In this document: in pieces, positions 3,001 to 36,003 of the stretch
Numbering within the stretch: position 1 is the first letter of the stretch
Layout of the letters: every line of letters starts with the position of its first letter
NCBI GenBank assembly: GCA_948144175.1
Contig: CANXME010001985.1
Coordinates: 434,001-498,000, forward strand
Direction: 5' to 3'
From: Closterium sp. NIES-65
Lineage: Eukaryota; Streptophyta; Zygnematophyceae; Desmidiales; Closteriaceae
Length of the DNA: 64,000 bases
The notes under the pieces: generated by a model
Told to the model about the DNA's origin: nothing
Database searches by the model: none
The model's input: the letters and a program-made list of their open reading frames with translations, nothing else
Position numbers and translations under genes: made by a program

Positions 3001-4829
3001 GTGCTAGCCTCTGTGCAGTGCGTCACCCGCTGACGAGCAGGGGTGAACTGGTGGACTCCCACATCCTGTAGGTCAGCACCACTCACCAAGTTCGTAGAGA
3101 ACGAGGGGAGGTAGAGACCAGACAAGGTGCCAGAGGGAGCCGCCGGACACGGGAGGACAGTGGACAAGCGAGACAGGATAGGACCCCCAGAGGGGTCAGC
3201 CAGGGAAACCGCAACCGGCCGACTAAGCGGCGTGAGTGTGGTGCGGTCCCGAAAGAAGGAGCGAGACGCCCCAGAGTCAAGGGGGAAGGTGTGGGAGGCC
3301 GAAGCCGACGTAGTACCTGAGAGCGCAGACTCACCAGTACCTGAGAGCGCAGACTCACTAGTACCTGAGAGCAAAGACGCACTGGCACCTAGAGCAGCAG
3401 CCTCACTAGCACCTAGAGCTGCAGTACCAATGCCCGGGTCGGGCGGGAAACACCGGTAACAGTCACCCTCATCACTAATAGTCACAGCATACATGGCAGC
3501 AAGGATAGCATCAAAGTCAAGATCAAAGATAGCTACGCCAGCCCTAGACAGCTCTCCCCAGCGGGGGATCTCCGTGGCCTCCGGAAACTGCTGACGCCAA
3601 GCGTCCGTCAGGCGGCCAAAGCAGCGCTGGGTGGGGTCGGCACCCCCACACTGCTCACCCGCGCGGTCGCCGGTGCGAAGGACGTAGGTGCAGGGACCAA
3701 GACCCCCACCACGCTGACGCTGCGTGTACCACTCACGGAGCTGCTGAGGGGTGGGGACGTCGCGAGAACGCTGCTGCTGCTGCTGCTGGCGCTGACCATC
3801 CCCAGCGCCGCTCCGCTGTGAAGTGCCACTCCGACCACCTCCACCACCTCCACCTCCGCCTCCTCCACCTCCGCCACCACCGCCACCCCCGCCAGTACCG
3901 CCGCCGCCGACGCCGCCTCCGCCTCCACTGCTGCCACTAGCACCCCCACCCCCGCCACCACCTCCACCGCCACCCCCACTCCCTCCGCCGCCTCCACCTC
4001 CACCGCCTCCGCTAGCTCCACCCGCTCCCTTGCCCCCCTTGCCCTTGCCAGGGCGGCGTCTCCCGCTAGGGGCAGACGCCGCACCGACCGACTCCAGACC
4101 AACGAGGTCGGCCGCAGCGGTAGAGGCGAGAGAGGGCAAGAGAGGGGAAGGAGAACACCCCTCAAAGATGGGGGCGCGGGGGTCACCTCGAGAGGCTCCT
4201 ACAGCGACGATGCTCTTCTCCACCGCTAGGAGGGCCTTCTCTAGGAGGTCGACTGTGAGAGTGGTGAGTTAGACCGCGGGGAAGTGGTCCCGGACTACAC
4301 GAAGGGAGTCAGGGAGGCGGGTGACTAGAAAGTAGAGAGTGATGTACATGGGGGGGGGGGTTCTTGGCGCAGAAGTCAGCAGGAAGCGCAGCACGGTAGC
4401 GGGTGTCACTAGTGCGGAGGTGCGTAATGAGATCAGCGACTGTGGGAAAGGCAGCAAGGTCAGGGAAGAGGAAGGGTAGCATGAGGCGGCTCAGTGCAGC
4501 AGTGGCAGGGGAGGAGTAGCGCGCAACTACAGCGTCGTACAAGGTCTTAGCACTCTTGTACTGACTAAAGTGCGCGCGCTCAGCGGTAGGCAGGTGGCGA
4601 CGCACAGCAAGACGTGCAGCAGCGTCGCGTGTGGCCCACTGGGAACGAACAGTGGGGTCAGCATCAGTAGCAAGGGCAGGGACGGCGCCAGAGGTGAGGT
4701 CAAAGAGAGAAAGACCGTCTGCCCTATCGCACTGTAAGAACAGCTGCAGGTCGTCGACCCAGACCTCAAAGTCAATGGCGCGACCCTCAGCGTCAAAAGC
4801 TAGGACACTAGGGGTAGCCATGACAGCAG

Positions 4830-6372: not shown

Positions 6373-7552
6373 TGCTATCAGAGCAGGTCGATCCCCTTGG
6401 GTCGATCCTGCGGGTGGGCTCACCACCTCACTGCTTCCGCTGCTACTGCTACTCTGTGTGTCGCACGCCCCGTGGCGTGCGACGGATTTTTCATCCCGCC
6501 GCGCGCTCGGAGCGTGCGGCGGTTTTCTGCCCGCCGTGCGCCCCGAGGCGCGCGGCGGTTTTCTGCCCGCCGTGCGCCTCGAGGCGCGCGGCGGCTTTCT
6601 GCCCCGTCACTCCGCGCGTCGCCCCCGGGAGGCGCTGCGACGGGCGACGGGGACCCGCGCGTCGCCCCTCGTCGCCCTTTGTGGCCCGCGCGCCCTACGT
6701 AGGGCCCGCGCGTAGCCCGTACGGGCTGCGCCAGGCCCGCGCGCGGCCCGTACGGGCTGCGCCAGGCCAGGGCGCGCCTCGGGCCGCCCGCACGCGGTTC
6801 GTACGGGCTGCGCCAGGCCCGTGGGTGCCCTGTTTCCTCTTCCCTTGAGGCGCCTGCTGTCCCCCGCACTTCTGACGGCGCCCCACCCCTGCTGCTACCC
6901 GTGCTCCTGCATTAGGGTTTGGGGGTGGAGCGTGTGGGGGTATGGGGGTGCAGTTTCTCAGCAGCATCTCCTGCTCCTCCTCCTCCGTCTCCCGCTGCTG
7001 CAGCTGCCGCTCAGGGGGGTGGGTGTGTGGGAGCCGAAGGAGTGGTACTAGGGGGTGAAGGGGGAGTGGAGCTAGGGGTGAAGCAGGGGGTGTGTGTCAG
7101 GGGGGGTGGGACTGTTTGGGGAGGTTGAACGGAGGTTGCCGTCGTATCGCCAGCAGCACCTGTAGTCCGGGGAGTTGCTCCGGTAGCCCAGTCGCAGCCA
7201 GCTGTGCCAGTCGCCCGTGGGTCCGTTGCTCGTCTGCCGCTAGTTTTAGCTGCGGGGCCAGTTACTCCAATGGTCCGGAGCGCTGTTCCGGTAGCCGCTG
7301 TGCCAGTGTGACTCCTGTTGCCCGTCTGTCTGCAGCTTCAATCGTCGCCTCCTATCTCCTCTCCTCTCACAGTCTCGCCTCCTCCTCCTCACTTGCCCTC
7401 TGCGATAGCCTCTAGCTTTGCTTACATTTGTGAACTTTGAACTGTTGCTTCTTGTACTTGTGCTCAGAATGTGTGGTGACATTGTGATCCACCCTGAGCT
7501 TGTTCTGCTTTGCTTGCTCTGCTGATTACACCCCACTTTGGCTATGGGGATG

Positions 7553-16592: not shown

Positions 16593-17448
16593 GTCGTTCC
16601 GCTCCGAAGTATGGCGGAAAAATGCGGCGTCCTTCACGGCGGGAAAAGCGCTAGAACGCCCGATCCTCGTAAGTAAAATTCAACCAGGTCGCTCAATTCA
16701 GGTTCATGTATCAAATTGGTATGCCGTGTCCTGTTTTCCGATCGTGAAAACCTTTACTGAGCTCAGTCACCAGGAGCGATCATCCATTCGCCTCACTGCT
16801 GGACATTCCCATCATAACTCAGGTTTCTTTCATTCGTCCTGTAGAACCATCATGTGCTGGATTTGACTCAAAAAAGGTTCTTTCTGGTTCTGCCGACAAT
16901 CTCAACACTGCTTGGCTGGTCGGTTTGGCCCTCGAGATCTCTCGAACTCACGAAAGCCCAATTCGCGAAATACTTTTTCGTTTAGAAAGAGCTGACGAAC
17001 CAGGATAGGGACACATTTGCTAGTTCCACGAAGGTTACGAGGTCATCACGAAGTTCGTTATGCGCATAAAACTTCGTTCGGCTGCGGTTATTGGGCCCGC
17101 AGCCACAGCGACCATCGAGCCTGCCCGATTGCAGCCCCATGAGGCTCCCGCTACTCGTCGTACCAAACCTAGAACCTGTAGGTCTGGGCAGACATCACGT
17201 TCCCCCGAACAAGCAGGCTACTTGCCCCATCAACTGGAGGTTCGGATTTCGAAGGCTTGTTTACGAGGAATCAGGATGCTCTGTGCGTTGTGCTGAGGGT
17301 GGGACTAAAACCGAATGCTGACTATAAGTCGCTGATGTTCGTCACTGCAAATGAAACCCGATTCGTTCGCCCGCTACCAGGTCGGACTTCGCTTCGGAAG
17401 ATTAGATGAGCGAAAAATAGAACCATTGGTAACAGAAACGATGGGCAT
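16593..17448. other. Upstream region of the GT90 gene, no gene seen
   Basis: Ordinary-composition DNA between the GT90 start and the gypsy insertion. It should hold the GT90 promoter and 5' UTR. The short frames present show no domain. Before the gypsy inserted, this stretch was continuous with 31681 onward. Confidence 0.5.
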
Positions 17449-19079: not shown

Positions 19080-22000
19080 ACATGTGGATCACCCAGTGCT
19101 GGTCGCTGGCAAAGTGTTCAAAAATAACTTAAAAATGTTCGTCGATGGAGGGGCCAGTCATAGCCTCTTCAACTTGGCGAGCGCAAAAAAATGCAAGCTG
19201 CAACTTGACAGGTGTCTGCCCGAAATCGACGCCCGCCTTGTGGATGGGACGCCTCTGGCGATAACGGAAGAAACACGGACGGTCAGGATCGAATGCGGCA
19301 ACGATTTCGGCTTCAGCATGAAGTTCCTCGCGACAACATTGGACGGCTGCGACGTGCTGCTGGGACGTGATTGGCTGCGACGGCACAACCCCGTCATCGA
19401 CTGGACAACGGGATCGTGCAGCATCAACAAGCATGAGGGGCTAATTAAGCTCCCTGCATGGACGCCTGACTACATCCAAGCCCCGTGCGTCAAAGCTATC
19501 ACTATAGCTTGACAAAGTTTGAAGAAAGAAAGAGGGTTGAACTAGCAGAAATGGGGATACAAATAGCAAACCCTAGAAGGGTTGTACTCGCTATAGAGCA
19601 CCCCACTACAGGCTAGAACAATAAGATAATATTCTGACAGACCCCCATAGCCAAAGTGGGGTGTAATCAGCAGAGCAGGCAAAGTAGTACAAGCTCAGGG
19701 TGGATCACAATGTCACCACACATTCTGAGCACAAGTTCAAGAAGAGATAGTTTAGAGTTCACAATTATGAGCAGAGCTAGTGGTAGTCACAACGGGCAAG
19801 TGAGGAGGAGGAGAGAGAGTGAGGGGAGAGGAGATAGGAGGCGACGGCTGAAGCTGCAGGCACACGGGCAACAGGAGGCACACTGGCACAGCGGCTACCG
19901 GACAGCGCCCGGACTACAGGAGTAACAGGCCCCGCGGCTCAAATAGCGGCGGACGGGCAACGGACCCACAGGCGGCTGGCACAGCTGGCTACGACTGGGC
20001 TACCGGGACAGCGCCCCGGACTACAGGTGCTGCGAACGACAAACTGACAACCTCCACTCAACCTCCCGAACACAGTCCCACCCCCTTGATGCACACCCAC
20101 TGCTACACCGCTAGCTGCACTCCCACGCACCCCCCTTAAACCCTAAACCCGAGTCTCCCACACAACCACCCCCCTCAGCGACAGCTGCAGCAGTGGGAGA
20201 CGAAGGAGGAGGAGGAGCAAAGGGAGGAAGGCACACCGAGCACCCCCATACCCGCCACCCCACAGCAAGCGGCCCCCTCAAGTCGACTCGACGGACGACG
20301 GGAAATGGCAGGGGGAGGGGGGAGGGGGGGGGGGAGGCGGTGTGGTGAAAGGGGCCCACCACGGGCCTGGTTGGAGGGCGGGGCCGCGACAAGGGGCGGG
20401 GCCGCGACGAGGGGCGGGGCCGCGACGAGGGGCGGGGCCGCGACGGTCGGGCAGGGCCGCTTCGAGGGGCGGGGCCGCGACACAGGGCGGGGCCGCGACG
20501 TAGGGCGGGGCCGCGACGGTCGGGGCGGGGCCGCGACGTAGGGCAGGGCCGCTTCGAGGGGCGGGGCCGCGATGCAGGGCGGGGCCGCGACGTAGGGCGG
20601 GGCCGCGACGTAGGGCGGACGCCCGCGAAGGTAGGGCAGACGCCCGCCGCGCGCCTCGGGGCGCACAGTGGGCAAAGAACCGCCGCGCGCCCCGGGGCGC
20701 ACGGCGGGCAGAAAACCGCCGCGCGCCTCGGGGCGCACGGCGGGAAGGAAAACCACCGCGCGCCTCGGGGCGCACGGCGGGAAGGAAAGGTAGCAGCGGA
20801 AGCGAGGTGGAAACCCACCCACAGGATCGATCCAAGGGGATCGACCTGCTCTGATAGCATGACAAAGTTTGAAGAAAGAAAGAGGGTTGAACTAGCAGAA
20901 ATGGGGATACAAATAGCAAACCCTAGAAGGGTTGTACTCGCTATAGAGCACCCCACTACAGGCTAGAACAATAAGATAATATTCTGACATAGCTCGCCAC
21001 TTCAACAGAGGCGCGCAACTGTTCGCTGTTTGCTTACGCGAGTTTGCGGTCGACACCGAAGGAAAGGACATCGAGAAGCTGTGTGCAGCTGTACCACCGG
21101 ATTTAGCGGAGCTGATTCGGAGGTACCCGGACATCTTCCCCGACGATCTGCCACCTGGACTGCCACCAGAGAGACCTGAGGACCACAAAATCCAGCTGGA
21201 ACCTGGAGCGCAGCCAACCGTTCGAACACAGTGGCGGTTGACCCAGCCGGAACTCGAGGAGCTGCGACGACAAATTGACGCACTGTTAGAGAAAGGGTTC
21301 ATTCGGGCCAGCACATCTCCTTTCGCAGCACCGATTCTGTTCACCCCGAAGAAGGACGGCGGGCTTCGCATGTGGATCGACTATCGCGCGCTGAACAGGG
21401 TCACCATCAAGTCTCGCTACCCAATCCCACGAACCGACGACCTCCTCGACCAACTTCGCGGCGCTCGATATTTCTCGAAAATTGACTTACGTGGCGGTTA
21501 CCACCAAATTCGAGTCTTTGCCGACGATTGTCACAAGACTGCGTTTCGCACACGCTACGGGAGTTACGAATTTACAGTGATGCCTTTCGGCCTCACGAAC
21601 GCGCCATCAACTTTCCAACTGACCAAGAGCAGGGTTTTTCGGGATCTTCTAGACCGGTATGTCGTCGTCTACTTGGACGATATCCTCATTTTTAGCAAGA
21701 CACGGGAGCAGCACCTCCGTGACCTGGATGTAGTGTTTAAGCAGGAGTTGGAGTTTTTGGGGCACGTCATCTCACGTGACGGCATTAAAATCGACCCGGC
21801 AAAAATCAAGACCATACAAGAGTGGAAGTCCCCGACGAACGTCACGGAGCTCCAGAGTTTCCTCGGATTCGTGAATTACGTCCGGCGGTTTATCCCGAAT
21901 ATGGCGGGGATAACCGGCCCGCTGACCGACCTGCTGCACAAGGACAAGAATTTTGTGTGGGGGGAGGAGGCAAAAGCGGCTTTCCAGAAACTCAAGCATT

Positions 22001-22795: not shown

Positions 22796-22932
22796 TGTGA
22801 GAATTATAGAACAGGAATGTGTGGACTATGAATGAAGGCAGTACAAATATGAAACCCTAACTGGGTTGTACCCCCTATGGGATACCCCACTACAGCCTAC
22901 ACAATAGTATAAGCTATAGATATGTTCTGACA
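22796..22932 (-). repeat. 3' LTR of Copia C
   Basis: 137 bp, TGTGAGAATT...TTCTGACA on the plus strand; on the minus strand it is preceded by the purine-rich GCCTATGGGGGTG. Confidence 0.93.
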
Positions 22933-23169
22933 CACCCCCATAGGCAAAGTGGGGGAGAACAAGGGGTCACAAGACCAGTCAAGCAAAGCAAAGCAAAGCA
23001 AGCTCAGGGTGGATCACAAAGTCACCACACAGTCCGAGCACAAGAGCAGGGCCAGAAGCCAGTTCACATGCAAGAGTGCAGACATATATATATAAAATTA
23101 GACAAGCAAGAGCAGGTATATATATATGTCACAGTACAAGTAAAGTCAAGAGGAGAGCAAGTGAGGCAA

Positions 23170-24690
23170 GACAGGCACAAGACCCAGCTGGGTGCAGAAG
23201 CGCTGATGGTCACAAGGCGCAAGTGCCTTGGTGAACACATCAGCAGTGTTGGCCTCAGAGGCCACGTACGCAAGCCGCAACTGTCCAAGCTGCTGTAGCT
23301 CACGAGCAAGAAAGTAGCGAAGAGCAATGTGCTTCGTTCTGTGCTCCAGACGCTGCTCTCGACACAAGGCCAGCATGGCCTTGTTGTCTACGTACAGCAC
23401 TGGAGGAGAACGAGGCGGCTCTCCAAGGTCAATCAGCAGGTAGGTGAGCCAGCGAAGCTCCTGTGCAGCCATGGCCCCGGCGTAGATCTCAGCCTCACAA
23501 CTGGAGCTGAGAACCGAAGACGAACGAGTAGCCCGCCACGAGACAGAGCCGGAACCAAGACTGAAGGTGTAACCCTGTGACGACCGCTGCGTAGCCTGGT
23601 CGTCAGCCCAAGAAGCGTCCGCGTGCCCTGTAAGGACCACTGGACTCCGCCCTCCAAGCACTAGCCCCATGCTCGACGTACTGCACAGGTAGCGCAATAC
23701 CCTCTTCGCTGCAGCCATGTGCTCTGGTCGGTGTCTCCAAGGAGCAACATAGCGTGCAAGAATGCTCAGAGGGTATGCAAGGTCAGGTCGTGTGCAGGTC
23801 ATCAGGTACATGAGGCAGCCAACAAGCTCTGGGTACGGGCCACTCGACTCTACGGACTCATCCGAAGGCAGAGCTGAGAGCGAGTGGCGAGTAGACAGAG
23901 GAGTGGCCTGAGGCGAGGAGTACGTGAAGCCGAAGCGCTGAAGGACCTGCTGCACCATGTGTGACTGAGTCAAGGTAATGGTGCGGCGTGCTCTGTCCCG
24001 AGTGATCTGCAAGCCAAGGTAGCTGCGCAGTTCACCCAAGTCTGTGCACGTGTGTCTCTTCAGCAGCTCGGACTTCACGTAGGCGAGTCCAGCAGTGTCC
24101 GCTGTGGCAAAGACCAAGTCGTCGACGTACACGAGGATGTAGAACGGCGGCAGAGAAGTGTCAGTGCGCAGAAACAGCGACGGGTCAGCAGTAGAAGGAG
24201 CAAACCCAAGAGCCGCAAGCGTAGTCCTCAGTGTGTCGTGCCACTCACGCGGTGCCTGGCGGAGACCGTAGACTGGCCGTCGGAGGCTCCACTGGGTGCC
24301 AGGAGGGAAAGTCCCAGTGAAGCCAGGTGGACGGCGCAGCCAGATCTCCTCGTGCAGGCTACCCTGCAGGAATGCAGTGCTGAAGTCGAGAGAGTGAAGC
24401 TCGTTGTCGCGCTGAGCGGCTATGTGCAGCAGCACCCGAAGAGTGGTCATCTTCGGGGTGGGAGAGAAGGTCTGAAAGTAGTCAACTCCCTGCCGCTGAC
24501 TGAAGCCACGAGCAACGTACCGCGCCTTGAAGACAGGTGGAGAGCCCGGCGGCCGCTTCACCCTGAAGATCCACATGCCACTGACGATGTTCGCCCCAGG
24601 AGGGGGAACTGCGTCAACGTAGGTGCCTGTGGACTTCCAGGAAGCCATCTCTGCATCCATAGCTGCCTGCCACTGAGAGGAGTAGGGACC
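23170..24690 (-). CDS. RT and RNase H region of Copia C
   Basis: Rounded domain block. Copia-type RT begins at WQAAMDAEMAS, passes ARYVARGFSQRQGVDY and LDFSTAFLQGSLHEEIW, and has the catalytic YVDDLVFA. RNase H carries GHADASWADD, SCEAEIYAG and KHIALRYFLARE, ending in ADVFTKAL. Confidence 0.87.
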
Positions 24691-26249
24691 CTCTACGGCC
24701 TCCGCGTAAGTGCGCGGAGTCGGGATGTCTAGTGCATCCGGGTCTCCCTCAGGAGCAAGCAGTACAGACGCGAGATGAGGTGAAGCAGCAGCCAGACACT
24801 GTAACTCCTCCTGCCTGTCCTCTAGGACGTCCGTGCCAAGAGCACACTCACCCCCGACGGACGGAGGACAGACAGACGCAGACTCAGCAACAAGACTAGC
24901 AGCGTAGTCTAGACGACAGCGAGCAGCAAAGTCGACGAGCTCAGCGACAAGAGCAGACGCAGCAGTGGACTCAAAAGAGGGGTCAGTGACGACAGTAGCA
25001 AGCAGACGCGTGACAGTAGGACTGGCAGCACGAAGAGAGTCCGACTCAGGGTCGGCAAGCGCAGGAAGAGAGGACTCAGGAGGAGAAGGCAAAGGGGCAC
25101 GCAGAGGAGCAGTGGACGGACGCAGAGACATCCGGTGCGTGCCAGGGACAGGAGGAGGACGCTGACGGGAACCGCGACCACTAGCGCGAGCAGCACGAAC
25201 AGGTGACGCAGGACGAGACGCAGGCTCACGACGCTCAGCAAGACCTCCAGTAGGACCAGTGTAAGGAGAGGGAGCAGGCAGAGGAGAGGAAGGCTCCAAC
25301 AGTGACTGCGACTGGACAGGCTGTGGACACTCAACCGGAGGAGAAAGACCAAGAACCTGCTGTAGGAGCGGAACGAAGTACGGCCGAGGCCGCGTGGCAG
25401 CTCCAGACTCAGCAGGGACAGCACCAGCACCCTCAGCGACAGCACCAGCGCCACCAACACCTCCAGCGGCAGGACCTCCAGCAGCACCAGCAGCAGAACC
25501 ACCGCCAGGACAGACAGCAGTAGTCTCAGCACCAACACCCTCAGCAGCTCCAGCTCCAGGAGGACCCGCAGGCCCAGCAGCTCCGGGACCAGCAGCACCA
25601 GCACCCTCGACGATCGAAGAAGCTCCAGCTCCAGCAGCACGCCTCCAGCGGCGAGCAAACCACTCGCGCAGCTCCTGTGGAGAGAGGGGCTCCCGTCGAG
25701 ACGCAGCAGCAGGAGAAACCCCAGGCTCAGCAGCTCCAGACTCAGCACCCCCAGGCTCAGCAGCTCCAGACTCAGCACCCCAAGGCTCAGCAGCTCCCAA
25801 CTCAGCACCCCCAGACCCAGCACCCCCTAGCTCAGCAGCTCCAGGCACAGCACCCCCCCGCTCAGCACCCCCAGGCTCAGCACCCTCCGCAGGAGCACCC
25901 CCAGGCCCAGCACCCCCAGGCTCAGCACCTCCAGGTTCGGCACCCCCGCGCACAGCACTCCCAGAGTCAGCACCCCCAGGCTAAGTACCCGCAGCAGCAC
26001 CAGAGTCACCAGTAACCTCGACCGGGTCAACTGCGTCTACCTGGGACACACCTGAGGGGGCAGGAACCTGAGGGGGGAGGGGGTCTACCGGGGGGGGAAC
26101 CGGCACAAGGAAGTCCGGCGGAGGGGGGAGGGAAGGAGTGCGGTAGGGGAAGAGGCGGTAGAAGGGGACTGACTCGTCGAACGTGACGTCCTGGGAGGAC
26201 AGAGCACGACGAGAGGAGGGGTGGTAAAACTGCCACCCGGGAGCGTCTG

Positions 26250-27580
26250 TGGGGAAGCCAAGGAAGACACAGGGAGCAGCACGAGGGGACAGCTTGTCGG
26301 CAGACAAGTCGCGGACAAACGCCCGAGATCCCCAGACACGGAACGCCGACGCATCGCCAACCTTCCCCGTCCACAACAAGACCGGGGACATCGCGGGCCG
26401 AGAGACCCGGGGGTGAAGGTTGATCTGATGCGCCGCGTACCGAACCGCAAACGGCCACAGAAAATGGGGGGCAGCCGCATGCATCATGGACGTACGGGCG
26501 ACGTCCATGACCATGCCGATGCGGCGCTCAGCAATCCCATTCTGCTGTGGAGAGTCCGGAAGCGTGAAAGACTGGCGGATGCCTCGTGCACGACAGTAGG
26601 CTCGCAGAAGGCCAGAGGAGAACTCTCCGCCTCTGTCCGAGTGCAGACGCAGAACAGGAAAGTCCGAGCCGAAGCTCTTCCTGAGCTGGAGACGAGCCTC
26701 GCGGATCCAGTCGATCAGCACCTCAGTGACAGCACCCTTGCTGCGCAAGGGGAGGACTGTGGTGTAACGCGAGTAGTCGTCAACCACCAACAGGAAGTAG
26801 CGCTCGTGACCCTGCCCACGGACGGGGGCTGGGCCCCACACGTCCATGTGAAGCGTCTGCAGAGGAGCCTCTGTCGGGGGGAACTGGGAGGAGTGAGGAG
26901 CAGCCCGGAGGCGCCCCTCGACACAGGGGACACAGGAAGGTCCCGGTCCCGAAGGAAGGGGAGGGAGAGACCGGGGAAGACCTGAGACAAGGACACGGGA
27001 AGCCATGCCCCGAAGACGGGACAGGGAGGGGTGGCCAAGACGGTGGTGCCACAGAAGAGTCTCGTGAGAAAGGAGGCGACACAAACAGGGGGCAGACTCA
27101 GGGCCAGACCGGGACGCAGCAGCAAACACCTGACCTGACGCAGCTACCTGACCAGACGCAGGGACAGGAGGAGACGTAGTGGTCAGGGTTTAGAGGCTCG
27201 ACCCCGGCCGACGCGAGAACGTGGCCAGGTGTCGGCCTGTGCGTGCGTCCGTGCAGTGGGTCACCCGCTGACTCGCAGGAGTGAACTGGTGAACCCCCGC
27301 ATCCTGCAGGTCCGCACCACTCACCAAGTTCGTAGAGAACGAGGGAAGGTACAGACCAGACAGGGTGCCCGAAGGGGCAGCCGGACACGGGAGAACAGTG
27401 GAGAAGTGAGAGAGGACAGGACCCCCAGAGGGGTCAGCCAGGGAGACCGCAACGGGCCGGCCAAGTGGTGTGAGGGTAGTGCGGTCTCGAAAGAAGGAGC
27501 GAGAAGCCCCGGAGTCGAGTGTGAAAGTGAGGGAGGACGGAGGCGACGCAGTACTTGAGAGCGCAGTCTCACCAGCACCT
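26250..27580 (-). CDS. Protease and integrase region of Copia C
   Basis: Rounded domain block. Protease motif LDSGASRSFF lies near 27515. The integrase HHCC region (LLWHHRLGHPSL, PSCVPCVEGR) is followed by the core residues VDDYSRYTTV and LHSDRGGEFSS, then SPQQNGIAERR, and the conserved VWGSRAFVRDL tail. Confidence 0.85.
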
Positions 27581-27649
27581 GAGAGCGCAGACGCACTGGC
27601 ACCTAGAGCAGCAGCCTCACAAGCACCTAGCGCAGCAGTACCAATGCCC

Positions 27650-29049
27650 GGGTCGGGCGGGAAACACCGGTAACAGTCACCCTCCTCACTAATAGTCACA
27701 GCATACATAGCAGCAAGGATAGCATCAAAGTCAAGATCAAAGATCGCTACACCAGCCCTAAGAAGCTCATCCCAGCGAGGGATCTCACTAGCCCCGGGGA
27801 ACTGCTGACGCCAAGCGTCCGTCAGGCGGCCAAAGCAGCGCTGGGTGGAGTGGGCACCCCCACACTGCTCACCCGCGCGGTCGCTGGAGCGAAGGACGTA
27901 GGTACAAGGACCAGTGCCCCCACCCCTCTGACGCCGAGTGTACCACTCGCGGAGCTGCTGGGGCGGAGGGACGTCACGCGAACGCTGCTGCTGCTGCTGC
28001 TGCGAGCGCTGACCACCACCACCGCTGCTCCGCTGCTGGGTACCGCCTCGACCAGCTCCACCTCCTCCTCCACCACCGCCTCCTCCACCGTCACCACCAC
28101 CACTGCCGCCACCACCACCGCCGCCGCCACCACCGCCGCCTCCTCCGCCGCTGCCACCACTACCACCACCACCCCCGCCACCACTCCCGCCGCCACCCCC
28201 ACTCCCTCCGCCGCCTCCACCGCCACCTCCACCGTTCCCTCCAGCTCCACCAGCGCCCTTGCCCCCCTTGCCCCTGCCAGAGCGGCGTCTCCCACTAGGG
28301 GCAGACGCCGCGCCAACCGACTCGATACCAAGCAGGTCGGCAGCAGCAGCAGAGGCAACAGAGGGCAGGAGGGGGGAAGGAGAGCACCCCTCAAAGATGA
28401 GGGTGCGAGGGTCACCACGAGAAGCTCCTACAGCGACGATGCTCTTCTCCGCCGCGAGGAGGGCCTTCTCGAGGACGTCGACGGTGAGGGTGGTGGGACA
28501 GACTGCGAGAAGGTGGTCCCTGACTACGCGAAGGGAGTCAGGGAGGCGCGCGACTACGTAGTAGAGAGTGATGTACATGGGGGGGGGGTTCTTAGCGCAG
28601 AACTCAGCAGGAAGGGCGGCGCGGTAGCGAGTGTCACTAGTGCGGAGGTGCGTAATGAGGTCAGCGACAGTGGGAAAGGCAGAGAGGTCAGGAAAGAGGT
28701 AGGGAAGCATGAGACGGCTCAGTGCAGCAGTGGCAGGGGAGGAGTAGCGCGCAACTACCGCGTCGTACAAGGTCTGAGCACTCTTGTACTGACTAAAGTG
28801 CGCGCGCTCAGAGGTAGGGAGGTGGCGACGCACAGCAAGACGTGCAGCAGCATCGCGGGTGGCCCACTGAGAGCGCACAGTGGGATCAGCATCAGCAGCA
28901 GGGGCAGGAGAGGTGCCAGAAGTGAGGTCAAAGAGGGAGAGGCCGTCTGCCCTATCGCACTGTAAAAACAACTGCAGGTCGTCGACCCAGACCTCAAAGT
29001 CAATGGCGCGACCCTCAGCGTCAAAAGCTAGGACACTAGGGGTAGCCAT
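27650..29049 (-). CDS. gag region of Copia C
   Basis: Begins MATPSVLAFDAEGRAIDFEV at 29049. The capsid part contains WATRDAAARLAVRRHLP and YKSAQTLYDAVVARYSS. A polyglycine linker of about 100 residues follows (~28030-28250), then a Gln-rich run, and a zinc-finger-like cluster CTYVLRSSDRAGEQCGG with a trailing RCF. The boundary with protease is approximate. Confidence 0.85.
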
Positions 29050-29149
29050 GACGACGACAGCGAAGCAGTGCAAGCAGTAGGGGAAGAGCAGTAGCACGCA
29101 GTGACAGTGGGATTGTGCTCACCAAGCAGGGCAGGCCGGGCAGCTCTGC

Positions 29150-30060
29150 AGAAGGGCGGCTCGGCGACTCAACGACTCGGCTGCTGGGCGGCTCGGCTCC
29201 CGGGCGGCTCGGCGGCAGGGCGGCTCGGGTGCAGGGCGGCTCGACTCCCGGGCGGCTCGGCGGCAGGGCGGCTCGGGTGTAGGGCTGCTCGGCTCCCGGG
29301 CGACTCGGGTGCGAGGCGGCTCGGCCGCACCGCTGCTCGGCTGGTGCAGGTGGGGTGGCGGGGCCGCGAGACCAGGGGCGGCGGGGCCGGTGAGTGCAGC
29401 GGCGGGGCCGTCAGGTGCAGCGGCGGGGCCGTCAGAGGGGACGGCGGGGCCGTCAGAGGTGCAGCGGCGGGCCGGCAGAGGGGACGGCAGGGCCGTCAGG
29501 TGCAGCGGCGGGGCCGGCAGAGGTGCAGCGGCGGGCCGGCAGAGGGGACGGCGGGGCCGTCAGGTGCAGCGGCGGGGCCGGCAGAGGTGCAGCGGCGGGC
29601 CGGCAGAGGGGACGGCGGGGCCGTCAGGTGCAGCGGCGGGCCGGCAGAGGGGACGGCGGGGCCGTCAGAGGTGCAGCGGCGGGCCGGCAGAGGGGACGGC
29701 GGGGCCGTCAGGTGCAGCGGCGGGCCGGCAGAGGGGACGGCGGGGTCGTCTCGTAGCGGGCGGCGAGGCCGCGCCTGAGCAGGCGGCGTGGCCGCGTTGT
29801 AGCGGGCGGCGGGGCCGCGGCTGAGCAGGCGGCGGGGCCGCGTCGTAGCGGGCGGCGAGGCCGCGCCTGAGCAGGCGGCGCGGTCGCGTCGTAGCGGGCG
29901 GCGGGGCCGCGGCTGAGCAGGCGGCGGGGCTGCGCCTGAGCGGGCGGCGGGGCCGCGTCTAAACAGGCGGCGGGGCCGCGTTCGAAATGGGTGGCGGGGC
30001 CGCGGCTAGCAGGCGGCGGGGCCGTGAGGGAAGGGCGACCCGGAGGGTCGCTCGAGCGAG
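29150..30060. repeat. GC-rich minisatellite leader of Copia C
   Basis: Tandem repeats of about 60 bp made of GGTGCAGCGGCGGGCCGGCA and GGGGACGGCGGGGCCGTCA blocks, then about 27-bp GGCGGCGGGGCCGCG repeats. Lies between primer site and gag. Open frames are by-products of composition. Confidence 0.8.
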
Positions 30061-30140
30061 AGAAAAAAAAGTTGGCGCGCCTCGGGGCGCGCTTCGGTGG
30101 GCCCTAGGTGAAGTTCCCACAGGGAACCCGCTCTATACCA

Positions 30141-30277
30141 TGTGAGAATTATAGAACAGGAATGTGTGGACTATGAATGAAGGCAGTACAAATATGAAAC
30201 CCTAACTGGGTTGTACCCCCTATAGGATACCCCACTACAGCCTACACAATAGTATAAGCTATAGATATGTTCTGACA
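30141..30277 (-). repeat. 5' LTR of Copia C
   Basis: 137 bp, one difference from 22796-22932; followed on the minus strand by TGGTATAGAGCGGG, a variant of the iMet primer site. Confidence 0.93.
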
Positions 30278-33215: not shown

Positions 33216-34367
33216 GCCCCGCAAATACCTTCAGATCGGAGCCGACTTTTGCACCTACTGAGTCGTTCGTAGGCCGGCAGCAACGATAGTCGCCATGGTC
33301 GACCCCATAGTTGATGCGGGCGTAGCGGATACCTTGGAGGCACGTTTGGCTGACGTGAGGAGACGCCACGCGCATGGAGAGTACGGGATGATCCCCTTGG
33401 TGATCGCTGAGTCGGGCATCCGGTCGCAGTGGGCGATGGAACACCCTTCCCGTCCTGCTTCTCCTCGACCGGTGCGCAACGAAGGTGGCATCGTCGACGA
33501 GGTCGATGGTGGTGCACGAGTCAACAGCAGCGAAGGCACGAGGCAGAGAGGGGTGATCAAGTTCGACGGTGGCTGCAGGCAGCTTGCGTGCCGGCGTTGA
33601 TGTTCGACGTCGTTCTCCTCTACGAAGCGGTGGAGGGCTCTCGGCGACGACGCATGTGACTGCAGGCGGGATTGCACCGGCGTATGGCTACTTCAAATTC
33701 TCACCGGACCGGATCACCGTCGCACCGCTTGAAGGTCGACGGGACCTTATCACTTGGAGGGAGTCAATAGAACCTCAGCTGGAGGTCGCCGGGCTGAAGG
33801 GCTTCGCCGACGACACCGTGCCAATTCCGCCCGAGGGGGATGTCGAGTTGCGCGGGGAGTTTCGTTCTGCTCACCTGCTCACCTTCATTGTCATCTCGAG
33901 GTGCTGCTTGCCGGTGGTGCAGCTAGTGCTCAGGAGCTGTCGAGAGCGACTGGATGCTGGTCAGCAGGCATGGCGCTTCATCATGTTGACGTACTAGGTC
34001 AGGGACGACCTGTACATCGGGCAGCTGGAGGAGAAGATGACACACATTCGGATGGGCGAGCAGGAGTCGGCGACAGATTACTGCAACCGTGCTCGACGGA
34101 TCCTGGCTGAGATGCGGATGGCGGGCGCCGAATAATCGACGGCGTCCTACATCACCCACATCGTCAAGGGCTTGCCACGCAGCTACAATCTCATGAAGAG
34201 GATGATGATGATGCCCAGCACGCGTGAGTCCCTCGACGAGGACTCCATCACCAGCTACATTCTTCAAGATGAGGCAATGCAAGAGGCCGAACAGCCAACA
34301 GAGCTCCTTCCGCAGTCAAACTACGCTGCATCGACGAAGCTGAATCAACAGCAAGGGCAGCGCGGGA

Positions 34368-34509
34368 TGTCAGAATCCCAACCACTAGACCATTGGGATA
34401 AAAGGGCTTTTTTTAGTAGCGGGTCAGTACGCCCATAACCCCCCAGGCAAACGCGCCTGTAACCCCCCTTAGGATCGATCGGGGATCTCACAGCGTAGCT
34501 CTACTGACA
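34368..34509 (-). repeat. 3' LTR of the mini-LTR element
   Basis: 142 bp, TGTCAGAATCCC...CTACTGACA on the plus strand; differs from its partner at three positions. Confidence 0.92.
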
Positions 34510-34572
34510 CCCCCCCACACTGGGAGGCCCAGGACTGAGCACAGTGGCAACGGCCAACATGTGCATACACCG

Positions 34573-34627
34573 GGATTCGAACCCGAGACCGCTCTGATAC
34601 CATGTCAGAATCCCAACCACTAGACCA
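34573..34627 (-). promoter_or_regulatory. tRNA-like A-box/B-box pair across the LTR-primer-site junction
   Basis: Minus strand: A-box TGGTCTAGTGG (34627-34617, perfect fit to TRGYNNARNGG) and B-box GGTTCGAATCC (34583-34573), 33 nt apart, the usual tRNA-gene spacing. Between them TCTGA-CATGGTA-TCAGA forms a five-pair stem with a seven-base loop, and TCGGG-TTCGAAT-CCCGG forms a T-arm. The D-arm resembles tRNA-Glu. No acceptor stem pairs, so this is not a tRNA gene. Confidence 0.75.
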
Positions 34628-34744
34628 TTGGGATAAAAGGGCTTTTTTTAGTAGCGGGTCAGTGCGCCCATAACCCCCCAGGCAAACGCGCATGTAACCC
34701 CCCTTAGGATCGATCGGGGATCTCACAGTGTAGCTCTACTGACA
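34603..34744 (-). repeat. 5' LTR of the mini-LTR element
   Basis: 142 bp direct repeat of 34368-34509; its minus-strand 3' end carries the A-box. Confidence 0.92.
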
Positions 34745-36003
34745 CGGGAAGCCAGGCGGAGGTGGTAGCGGAGGTGGGCGGTCGACGAAGGACATCAACG
34801 AGAAGCAGTCAATGCGGGACAAGGGTCGATAGGTGGTGGTCGACGGCGGGAGTGCTGGATTTGCGGCGACCCTAACCATCTCTCCTTTGAGTGCCCCGAC
34901 CGCGATGACAGCGACGAGGACGACAACAAGGGAGGCCGTGGTCGATCGGCCAGTCGTCGCCCCCGTCGAGATGAAAAGCCGCGCAAGGAGAAGCAAGCGT
35001 CGAAGAAGACGTTGTCGACGAAGGACGTCGGCAACTCCAGCGGCAAGAGCCGAGGCGACGGGGAAGCGTCGTGCTCGATGGTCGGCGTGGTGGAGCCGAC
35101 AGTCTCGCTGGCGCCGGAGGCTGGCGAGAACTTCAAGGCGGTGGCGGCAGCTGTGCAGGCCAACCCGATGGGGGTGGTGCTCGACAACGGGTGCTCCCAC
35201 CACCTGATGGGGACAAAGTCGGTCTTCATCGACATGGGGCTGAGCGACGGGGTGAAGCACGTGCGTGGGTTCAACGGGTTATTGCAGCCTGTCGAGGGTC
35301 GCGGAACCGTCGTTCTGCAAGGGGAGGCCGGGAAGCGGGTCCTCATCCTCGACATACTCTACGTTCCGGGCGTACAGGCGAACCTTCTGTTTGCTGGCCA
35401 GCTGAAGGAGAGCGGAGTGCAGTTGCAGGGCAATGGCGACGAGATGCTGCTCGTCGCTGCGAGCGGGGGGGTGCTCGGTCGAGCACGCTACACCGGATGA
35501 GTCCTCTGCACCGACCTCGCCCCTGCTCGACGCAGTCGCCGACGACCGAGGTGGTGGCTCTGCGGACGATCGTCTCGGCGACGAAGACAACCCCCAATAG
35601 GATCCATGCGCGGCTCGCACACGTCAGCATCGACACGATCAAGAGCTCGGCAAAGCATGATGTTGCTACTAGGCTCGACATCACGTCGTCGACCGGAGTA
35701 GACCCGCCGTGTGTCTCGTGCGTCGGAGGAAAGCTGGCGCGGCACACCTTCCCCGCCATGGGCTTAGACGACGCGGAGGCGCTGGCTGTCGTGCACATTA
35801 ACTGGTGCGGGCCATTTCGGGTGGCTGCCAAGGATGGCAGCTTGTACTTCCTGCGGCTGAAGGATCGCCATACTCAATTTGTATGGGCAATGCCGGTCGC
35901 TAAGAAGAGCGACGTGCTGCGGGAGTTCCAGCGGTGGCTGGTGCTGGTGGAACGGCAGACAAAGAAGTCGGTGCTGTCGCTTCGCTTCGATCGAGGAGGG
36001 GAG

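Follow-up and report, generated by a model that had tools for sequence, protein, structure and literature searches.

The stretch of DNA analysed here, the window, comprises 64,000 nucleotides from Closterium sp. NIES-65. Sequence inspection and a script identified an intact TRIM of 377 bp on its minus strand (34368-34744), which is inserted within a Copia gag region. The 5′ LTR (34603-34744, ends TGTCAG...CTGACA) and the 3′ LTR (34368-34509) have 142 bp each and differ at three positions. They enclose a non-coding interior of 93 bp (34510-34602), which begins with an exact primer binding site (PBS, TGGTATCAGAGC, 34591-34602) that we take to be of the iMet type and ends with a G-rich polypurine tract (GTGTGGGGGGG, 34510-34520). 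The target site duplication CGGGA is present on both sides (34363-34367 and 34745-34749). Two LTRs, a PBS, a polypurine tract, a length below 1000 bp, the lack of coding capacity and a 5-bp duplication define the element as a TRIM, and the anatomy of LTRs, interior and duplication claimed by a first-pass annotation of this DNA was confirmed by reading and by script.

All further features of the TRIM are also located on the minus strand, and element position i corresponds to window position 34745-i. Box A (TGGTCTAGTGG, element positions 118-128, window 34617-34627) is found near the end of the 5′ LTR, while box B (GGTTCGAATCC, element positions 162-172, window 34573-34583) is located just 3′ of the PBS inside an intact T-arm (CGGG-TTCGAAT-CCCG, 34571-34585), and the gap between the two boxes is 33 nt. 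A TTTT precedes box A in the 5′ LTR (34635-34638) and recurs at the matching place in the 3′ LTR (34400-34403), where it is the proposed Pol III terminator; no other TTTT occurs on the minus strand of the TRIM. The 3′ LTR carries a second box A (34382-34392) with no box B behind it. Box A forms the loop of a hairpin with a 7-bp stem (H1, ATCCCAA/TTGGGAT, 34610-34634), which shows compensatory changes among copies. A second hairpin (H2, TCTGA-CATGGTA-TCAGA, 34593-34609) with a perfect 5-bp stem and a 7-nt loop spans the LTR/PBS junction, and the PBS occupies its loop and 3′ arm. The positions of both boxes and of both TTTT, the intact T-arm and the primer site as one arm of a stem-loop all agree with what the first-pass annotation had described. 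Its wider picture of a tRNA-like unit did not hold to the same extent: ARAGORN predicted no tRNA gene in the window, and the box A region is the 7-bp hairpin rather than a canonical D-arm.

Further searches for a tRNA origin were likewise negative. An Rfam scan of 34000-35100 revealed no tRNA and only a sub-threshold tmRNA match on the T-arm (12.5 bits). An acceptor stem was absent from the TRIM by inspection, and with it the cloverleaf of a tRNA gene. No host tRNA donor was found, as two Glu-like tRNA patterns returned TRIM copies only (1 and 14 sites). Pattern scans for relatives gave no matches in viral contigs and seven stretches in wider genome contigs, all in bacterial records, by which no relatives were gained. 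The identity of a SINE was rejected, since the TRIM has LTRs, a PBS, a polypurine tract and 5-bp duplications.

According to the available part of PMC7279448, type-2 promoters follow the consensus TRGYnnARBGG for box A and GGTTCRAnYCY for box B, and these boxes are located at about +12 to +22 and +54 to +64, respectively. The boxes of the TRIM fit this consensus and spacing, with an implied start near element position 107. We consider it very improbable that this resemblance to a tRNA promoter is due to chance. Box A alone is indeed common and weak evidence by itself: among 531,140 dinucleotide-preserving shuffles of the TRIM it was found in 288,945, and the two strands of the window hold 162 box A matches versus a single box B. 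Box B was present in only 301 of these shuffles, and both boxes with a start distance of 30-60 in only 8. The conservation between subfamilies and the number of genomic copies (2,717 sites) described below also argue against chance.

The genome to which the window belongs comprises 874 Mb in 2,400 contigs. A search for plastid-type rbcL gave 24 matches in it, and a 927-base piece was most similar to the PDB entry 9chz (691 bits), followed by 4mkv (682 bits), with a lower value for 1gk8 (659 bits), which we read as suggesting a streptophyte. The exact PBS pattern occurs at 17,425 sites (reversed control 8), a PBS followed by box B within 3-20 nt at 3,258 sites (reversed control 0), and the exact combination of box A at −25, PBS and box B short of one G at 2,717 sites (reversed control 0). 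Since single mutations remove copies from such exact patterns, these counts are lower bounds for the family. The number of PBS sites compared to that of PBS plus box B sites indicates that box B is not a general feature of Copia leaders. For the same reason the idea that box B merely extends the complement of the iMet primer was rejected; box B is missing at the three other exact PBS sites of the window (17728, 45107, 61718) as well as at two sites with one mismatch (6373, 20859). A similarity search with the TRIM yielded 1,862 first-look candidates. Scoring of 40 candidates resulted in 41 matches, and 40 of these matches cover essentially the whole TRIM with 97-100% identity. In all 30 loci fetched from this search the 5-bp flanks match, and the LTR pairs differ at 0-3 positions in the 29 loci measured (L013, length 376, was left out), although these loci lean towards young copies because they were chosen as the matches closest to the query. 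The family is large and recently active, and the window copy is one member of it.

Anatomy, copy number, conservation, hairpin covariation and Copia hybrids were seen in the sequences themselves. We infer, with a probability of roughly 0.65, that the TRIM is transcribed by Pol III from a type-2 promoter assembled across the 5′ LTR/PBS junction. The integrity of single copies was followed in several sets. Among the first 30 listed of the 3,258 PBS plus box B sites (L061-L090), box A is located at exactly −25 in 24; L080 has a point mutation, and five loci (L062, L066, L067, L076, L085) have other, Copia-like sequence before the PBS. Both LTRs were recognised by script in 20 of these 30 loci, 16 of them with perfect target site duplications. 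Thirty further loci (L031-L060) were selected for an exact match to the 93-bp interior, box B included. Box A is present in 28 of them, the exceptions being L032 with a Copia-like LTR end and L053 with a point mutation, and TTTT in 25 (missing in L031, L032, L044, L051 and L059). Tandem units were observed at L067, L069, L075 and L076.

Two further sets were defined by short anchors. With the anchors CTGACA-PBS and TGCAC, which do not select for box B, 2,688 sites were obtained, and an exact box B is present in 73 of the 100 listed. The sole common variant lies at the N of the consensus (A 69, T 27, G 1 of 97 ungapped copies). The remaining box B positions vary like their neighbours, which indicates that single copies decay roughly neutrally. 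With the anchors CCGCTAC and PBS, 3,306 sites were obtained; among the 100 listed, box A is located at −25 in 81 and shifted in three more, and TTTT precedes box A in 93. In 7 of 100 listed copies, for example G000:C53:1647278 and C65:8811, box A is one base shorter (of the TGGTTAGTGG or TGGTTAATGG kind), mostly together with a G-C pair at the top of H1. A considerable fraction of the copies, for example L078 and L089, have an unusual 5′ LTR end before the PBS, CTGAGA instead of CTGACA; the G at −2 occurs in 13 of 63 listed copies of length 67.

For a comparison between subfamilies 21 actual copies of three size types (347, 377 and 375) were used. As 20 of the 21 had been picked by PBS and box B, these two segments are conserved partly by construction, while box A, H1 and TTTT were no selection criteria. 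Values are mean pairwise differences in the order 347 versus 377, 347 versus 375 and 377 versus 375. The U3 part of the 5′ LTR differs by 0.195/0.190/0.114 and the A-rich stretch at positions 91-106 by 0.123/0.139/0.088. The following segments show low values: TTTT of the 5′ LTR 0/0/0, 5′ arm of H1 0.024/0.024/0.048, box A 0.054/0.062/0.043, 3′ arm of H1 0/0.024/0.024, LTR end 0.048/0.119/0.071, PBS 0/0/0, spacer between PBS and box B 0.071/0.048/0.024 and box B 0/0.091/0.091. The segment after box B differs by 0.073/0.079/0.028, the rest of the interior by 0.779/0.775/0.100 and the polypurine tract by 0.113/0.131/0.045. In the 3′ LTR the values are 0/0.042/0.042 for TTTT and 0.026/0.027/0.027 for H1 plus box A, versus 0.175/0.193/0.120 for U3. 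The segments from TTTT to the T-arm thus differ by just 0-12% between the three subfamilies; the corresponding range is 11-20% for U3 and reaches 78% for the rest of the interior. In one subfamily the spacer between PBS and box B is three bases longer. These segments define a conserved core of TTTT, H1 with box A, LTR end, PBS and T-arm with box B (34561-34638).

The block is kept between lineages, whereas single copies decay. Conservation among further copies, which the first-pass annotation had proposed as a check, was borne out: the boxes, their rough spacing and TTTT persist across subfamilies while the remainder diverges, and the 2,717 exact sites retain the order of box A, PBS and box B. 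Loss or neutral decay of the boxes, which it had named as evidence against the proposal, was seen in single copies (box A kept in 81 of 100, box B in 73 of 100) but not between the subfamilies. Decay of this kind is expected because individual copies are not themselves selected. It could also be taken as the mark of a relic, in which only an ancestor had a Pol III promoter, which an inserted tRNA or SINE, for example, could have supplied, and the present copies originate from Pol II read-through. The 27 of 100 listed copies without exact box B and the 19 of 100 without box A at −25 would be in line with this, but such a relic is hard to reconcile with a core that is conserved between subfamilies when U3 is not, or with young copies that keep the core, such as the 28 of 30 loci with box A chosen by exact interior (box B included). 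We therefore regard a relic as quite improbable.

In minimum-energy folds of the 21 elements H1, with box A as its loop, was predicted in 20 and H2 in 17. The pair of H1 adjacent to the loop is A-T in 85, G-C in 10, G-T in 3 and A-C in 2 of 100 copies, and in one listed copy a C-G pair of H1 is changed to T-A. Genome-wide, at exact sites, the top pair of H1 has G opposite C or T in 440 cases and A-C in 38; among 100 listed of the 440 G sites, C was counted by eye in 68 and T in 32. G-U is thus tolerated far more than A-C, which suggests that the stem is formed in RNA, although the compensatory changes are not independent events, since the copies share descent. The covariation claim rests on these lists of exact sites and copies, not on RNAalifold, which returned a covariance term near zero for the 21 elements. 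For the RNA of a single copy the predicted fold has only a slight advantage over shuffled sequences (z −1.68; 11 of 200 shuffles were as good).

Covariation in H1 and the position of the PBS within H2 fit a role of the RNA as well and were counted against the Pol III reading. The conserved block might be an RNA structure for replication, that is a tRNA-like leader around the PBS that aids primer placement or release, dimerisation or packaging. The RNA would then be made by Pol II, either through read-through or from a core promoter that escaped recognition. In its role such a leader would resemble the tRNA-like element close to the PBS of HIV-1. We consider this explanation unlikely, because it does not predict that both boxes match the consensus exactly and at the spacing of a tRNA, or that TTTT is conserved at equivalent positions of the two LTRs, and because the Pol II signals TATAWA and AATAAA were absent from all 21 5′ LTRs. 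A structural role of the RNA and Pol III transcription are compatible, and both can hold.

Other signals are in line with transcription by Pol III. Nineteen of the 21 elements have TTTT at both expected positions and nowhere else; L086 lacks the one in the 3′ LTR and L090 has an extra one. The plant Pol III start motif is CAA, as stated in the available part of PMC11700998. The corresponding site lies at element positions 100-102 (34643-34645), where the window copy has AAA, and CAAG is found just 5′ of TTTT in 85 of the 100 listed copies of the CCGCTAC/PBS set. According to the Pol III reading, TFIIIC would bind box A, which falls within the final 25 nt of the LTR, and box B directly behind the PBS. 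The predicted start lies roughly 10-18 nt 5′ of box A, in the region of the CAAGCCCTTTT stretch; from there Pol III would read the PBS, the interior and the polypurine tract and terminate at the corresponding TTTT of the 3′ LTR. The predicted product is an uncapped RNA of about 240 nt (239-245 from the CAA/start region), whose ends would share a repeat of about 10 nt at most. Points against this model are the AAA of the window copy at the start motif, the negative searches for a tRNA gene and for a host tRNA donor, the missing 3′ TTTT of L086 and the need for Pol III to read past the TTTT near its own start.

Both LTRs receive a copy of box A and of TTTT while box B is single, so only the 5′ LTR together with the interior has the whole promoter, and solo and 3′ LTRs should consequently be silent. 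Judged from the arrangement of these motifs, there is a slightly better than even chance that the location of the promoter halves on opposite sides of the LTR boundary lets reverse transcription restore exactly one functional promoter in each complete unit, the primer site being enclosed in the tRNA-like fold of this promoter. Solo and 3′ LTRs would then be born promoterless, and tandem arrays, with one promoter per repeat and a terminator at each end of the unit, would yield unit-length RNAs. The earlier suggestion that the element exploits its primer site holds insofar as the PBS lies between the boxes; the PBS itself supplies neither of them.

Reverse transcriptase and integrase would be provided in trans by a Copia element, which would copy the RNA from the iMet primer and insert it with 5-bp duplications. 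The candidate mobiliser is a family whose LTRs occur in TRIM hybrids. Its member in the window (22796-30277, minus strand) has an RVT_2 domain in the ORF 23146-25953 and 137-bp LTRs with one difference and the ends TGTCAG...CACA. The leader of this element (29135-29997) consists of short GC-rich tandem repeats with 16-, 21- and 23-bp spacings. At 6 of the 60 sites L031-L090 (L032, L062, L066, L067, L076, L085) Copia-like LTR sequence is joined to the TRIM PBS. The flanks of L066, L076 and L085 match the LTRs of Copia 22796-30277, L062 and L085 match its coding part, and for L032 and L067 the likeness to the Copia LTR was judged by eye. In L067 hybrid LTRs of TRIM U3 and Copia-like U5 are present at both outer ends with TAGCT on both sides, and the switch lies a few bases from the predicted start. 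Strand transfer between Copia and TRIM RNAs packaged together, the mechanism we infer for this one case, would leave such a structure. L062, L066 and L076 carry at least one TRIM interior-LTR unit between the Copia 5′ LTR and the Copia PBS-like leader, which looks like an insertion precisely at the LTR/PBS junction. Two other short LTR elements of the window, at 6373 (plus strand) and 20859 (minus strand), have LTRs of 142 and 130 bp and the variant PBS TGCTATCAGAGC; their LTR sequence recurs about 1.2-1.35 kb downstream, and AGCTA flanks the element at 20859 on both sides. Both look non-autonomous, with LTR motifs common to the Copia group.

TRIMs with tRNA-derived sequence in their LTRs have been described as Helenus from fungi, animals and one plant, and the term TRIMp3 was coined for TRIMs transcribed by Pol III (Kojima 2024, PMC10886601). 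In the available part of that paper their tRNA-derived promoters are presumed to be Pol III promoters, most members have a box A with TRGCY and YGG and a box B with GGTTC, and the plant member Helenus-1_SMo has a 120-bp LTR and an 85-bp interior, a size similar to that of the window TRIM. Short length, PBS, polypurine tract, 5-bp duplication, tRNA-type promoter and a proposed Pol III transcript are common to both. GGTTC and TGG are present in the window TRIM, and its type-2 boxes and TTTT are Pol III promoter elements, but its box A has T instead of C as the fourth base. As far as the available description of Helenus goes, both boxes lie inside its LTRs, whereas in the window TRIM only box A belongs to the LTR, box B is part of the interior, and the tRNA-like unit encloses the PBS. 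Filing it as Helenus was rejected on that description, since box B (162-172) is outside the LTR; Helenus-1_SMo may share the split arrangement. By its motifs the TRIM would work like a TRIMp3 without the defining feature of Helenus.

Cassandra is likewise a plant TRIM with a Pol III promoter, a Met-type PBS, a start in the 5′ LTR and a stop in the 3′ LTR. Its 18-bp terminal redundancy (as cited in the available part of PMC10886601) gives precedent for a very short R. It differs by a 5S-derived promoter located wholly within the LTR, a length of 565-860 bp and another sequence type; an Rfam cmscan of 34000-35100 up to E 10 listed no 5S family. SMART/FRetro129 of grasses is a Copia-dependent TRIM (about 300 bp), as our element would be, that has a short LTR motif, PBS and polypurine tract in common with its partner, but its LTRs have a TATA box (TATAAAA) and TGTT...AACA ends, and Pol III signals are not reported in the available part of the description (PMC3281118). 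The window TRIM ends with TGTCAG...CTGACA, and none of the 21 5′ LTRs contains TATAWA. tRNA-headed SINEs also have one type-2 Pol III promoter per element that is read from within; they lack LTRs, PBS, polypurine tract and the 5-bp duplication of the integrase type. The statement of the first-pass annotation that a tRNA-type promoter assembled across the junction is not a described class has to be taken more narrowly, given Helenus and TRIMp3 (2024, available part of PMC10886601). In searches of the open-access literature no description was found of boxes divided between LTR and interior on either side of the PBS junction, and this arrangement appears to be new.

For annotation the proposed arrangement would be a warning: a type-2 promoter could straddle the LTR boundary, and searches limited to LTRs or to interiors would miss such promoters. 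Encounters between a Pol II retrotransposon and a putative Pol III RNA have left a natural record in the Copia hybrids. If the proposed arrangement is true, it makes the sharp prediction that complete elements are on and solo LTRs are off, and an LTR element would use an internal tRNA-type promoter without a useless second copy in its 3′ LTR. It would also account for the presence of thousands of copies of a 377-bp element that has no recognisable TATA or poly(A) signals.
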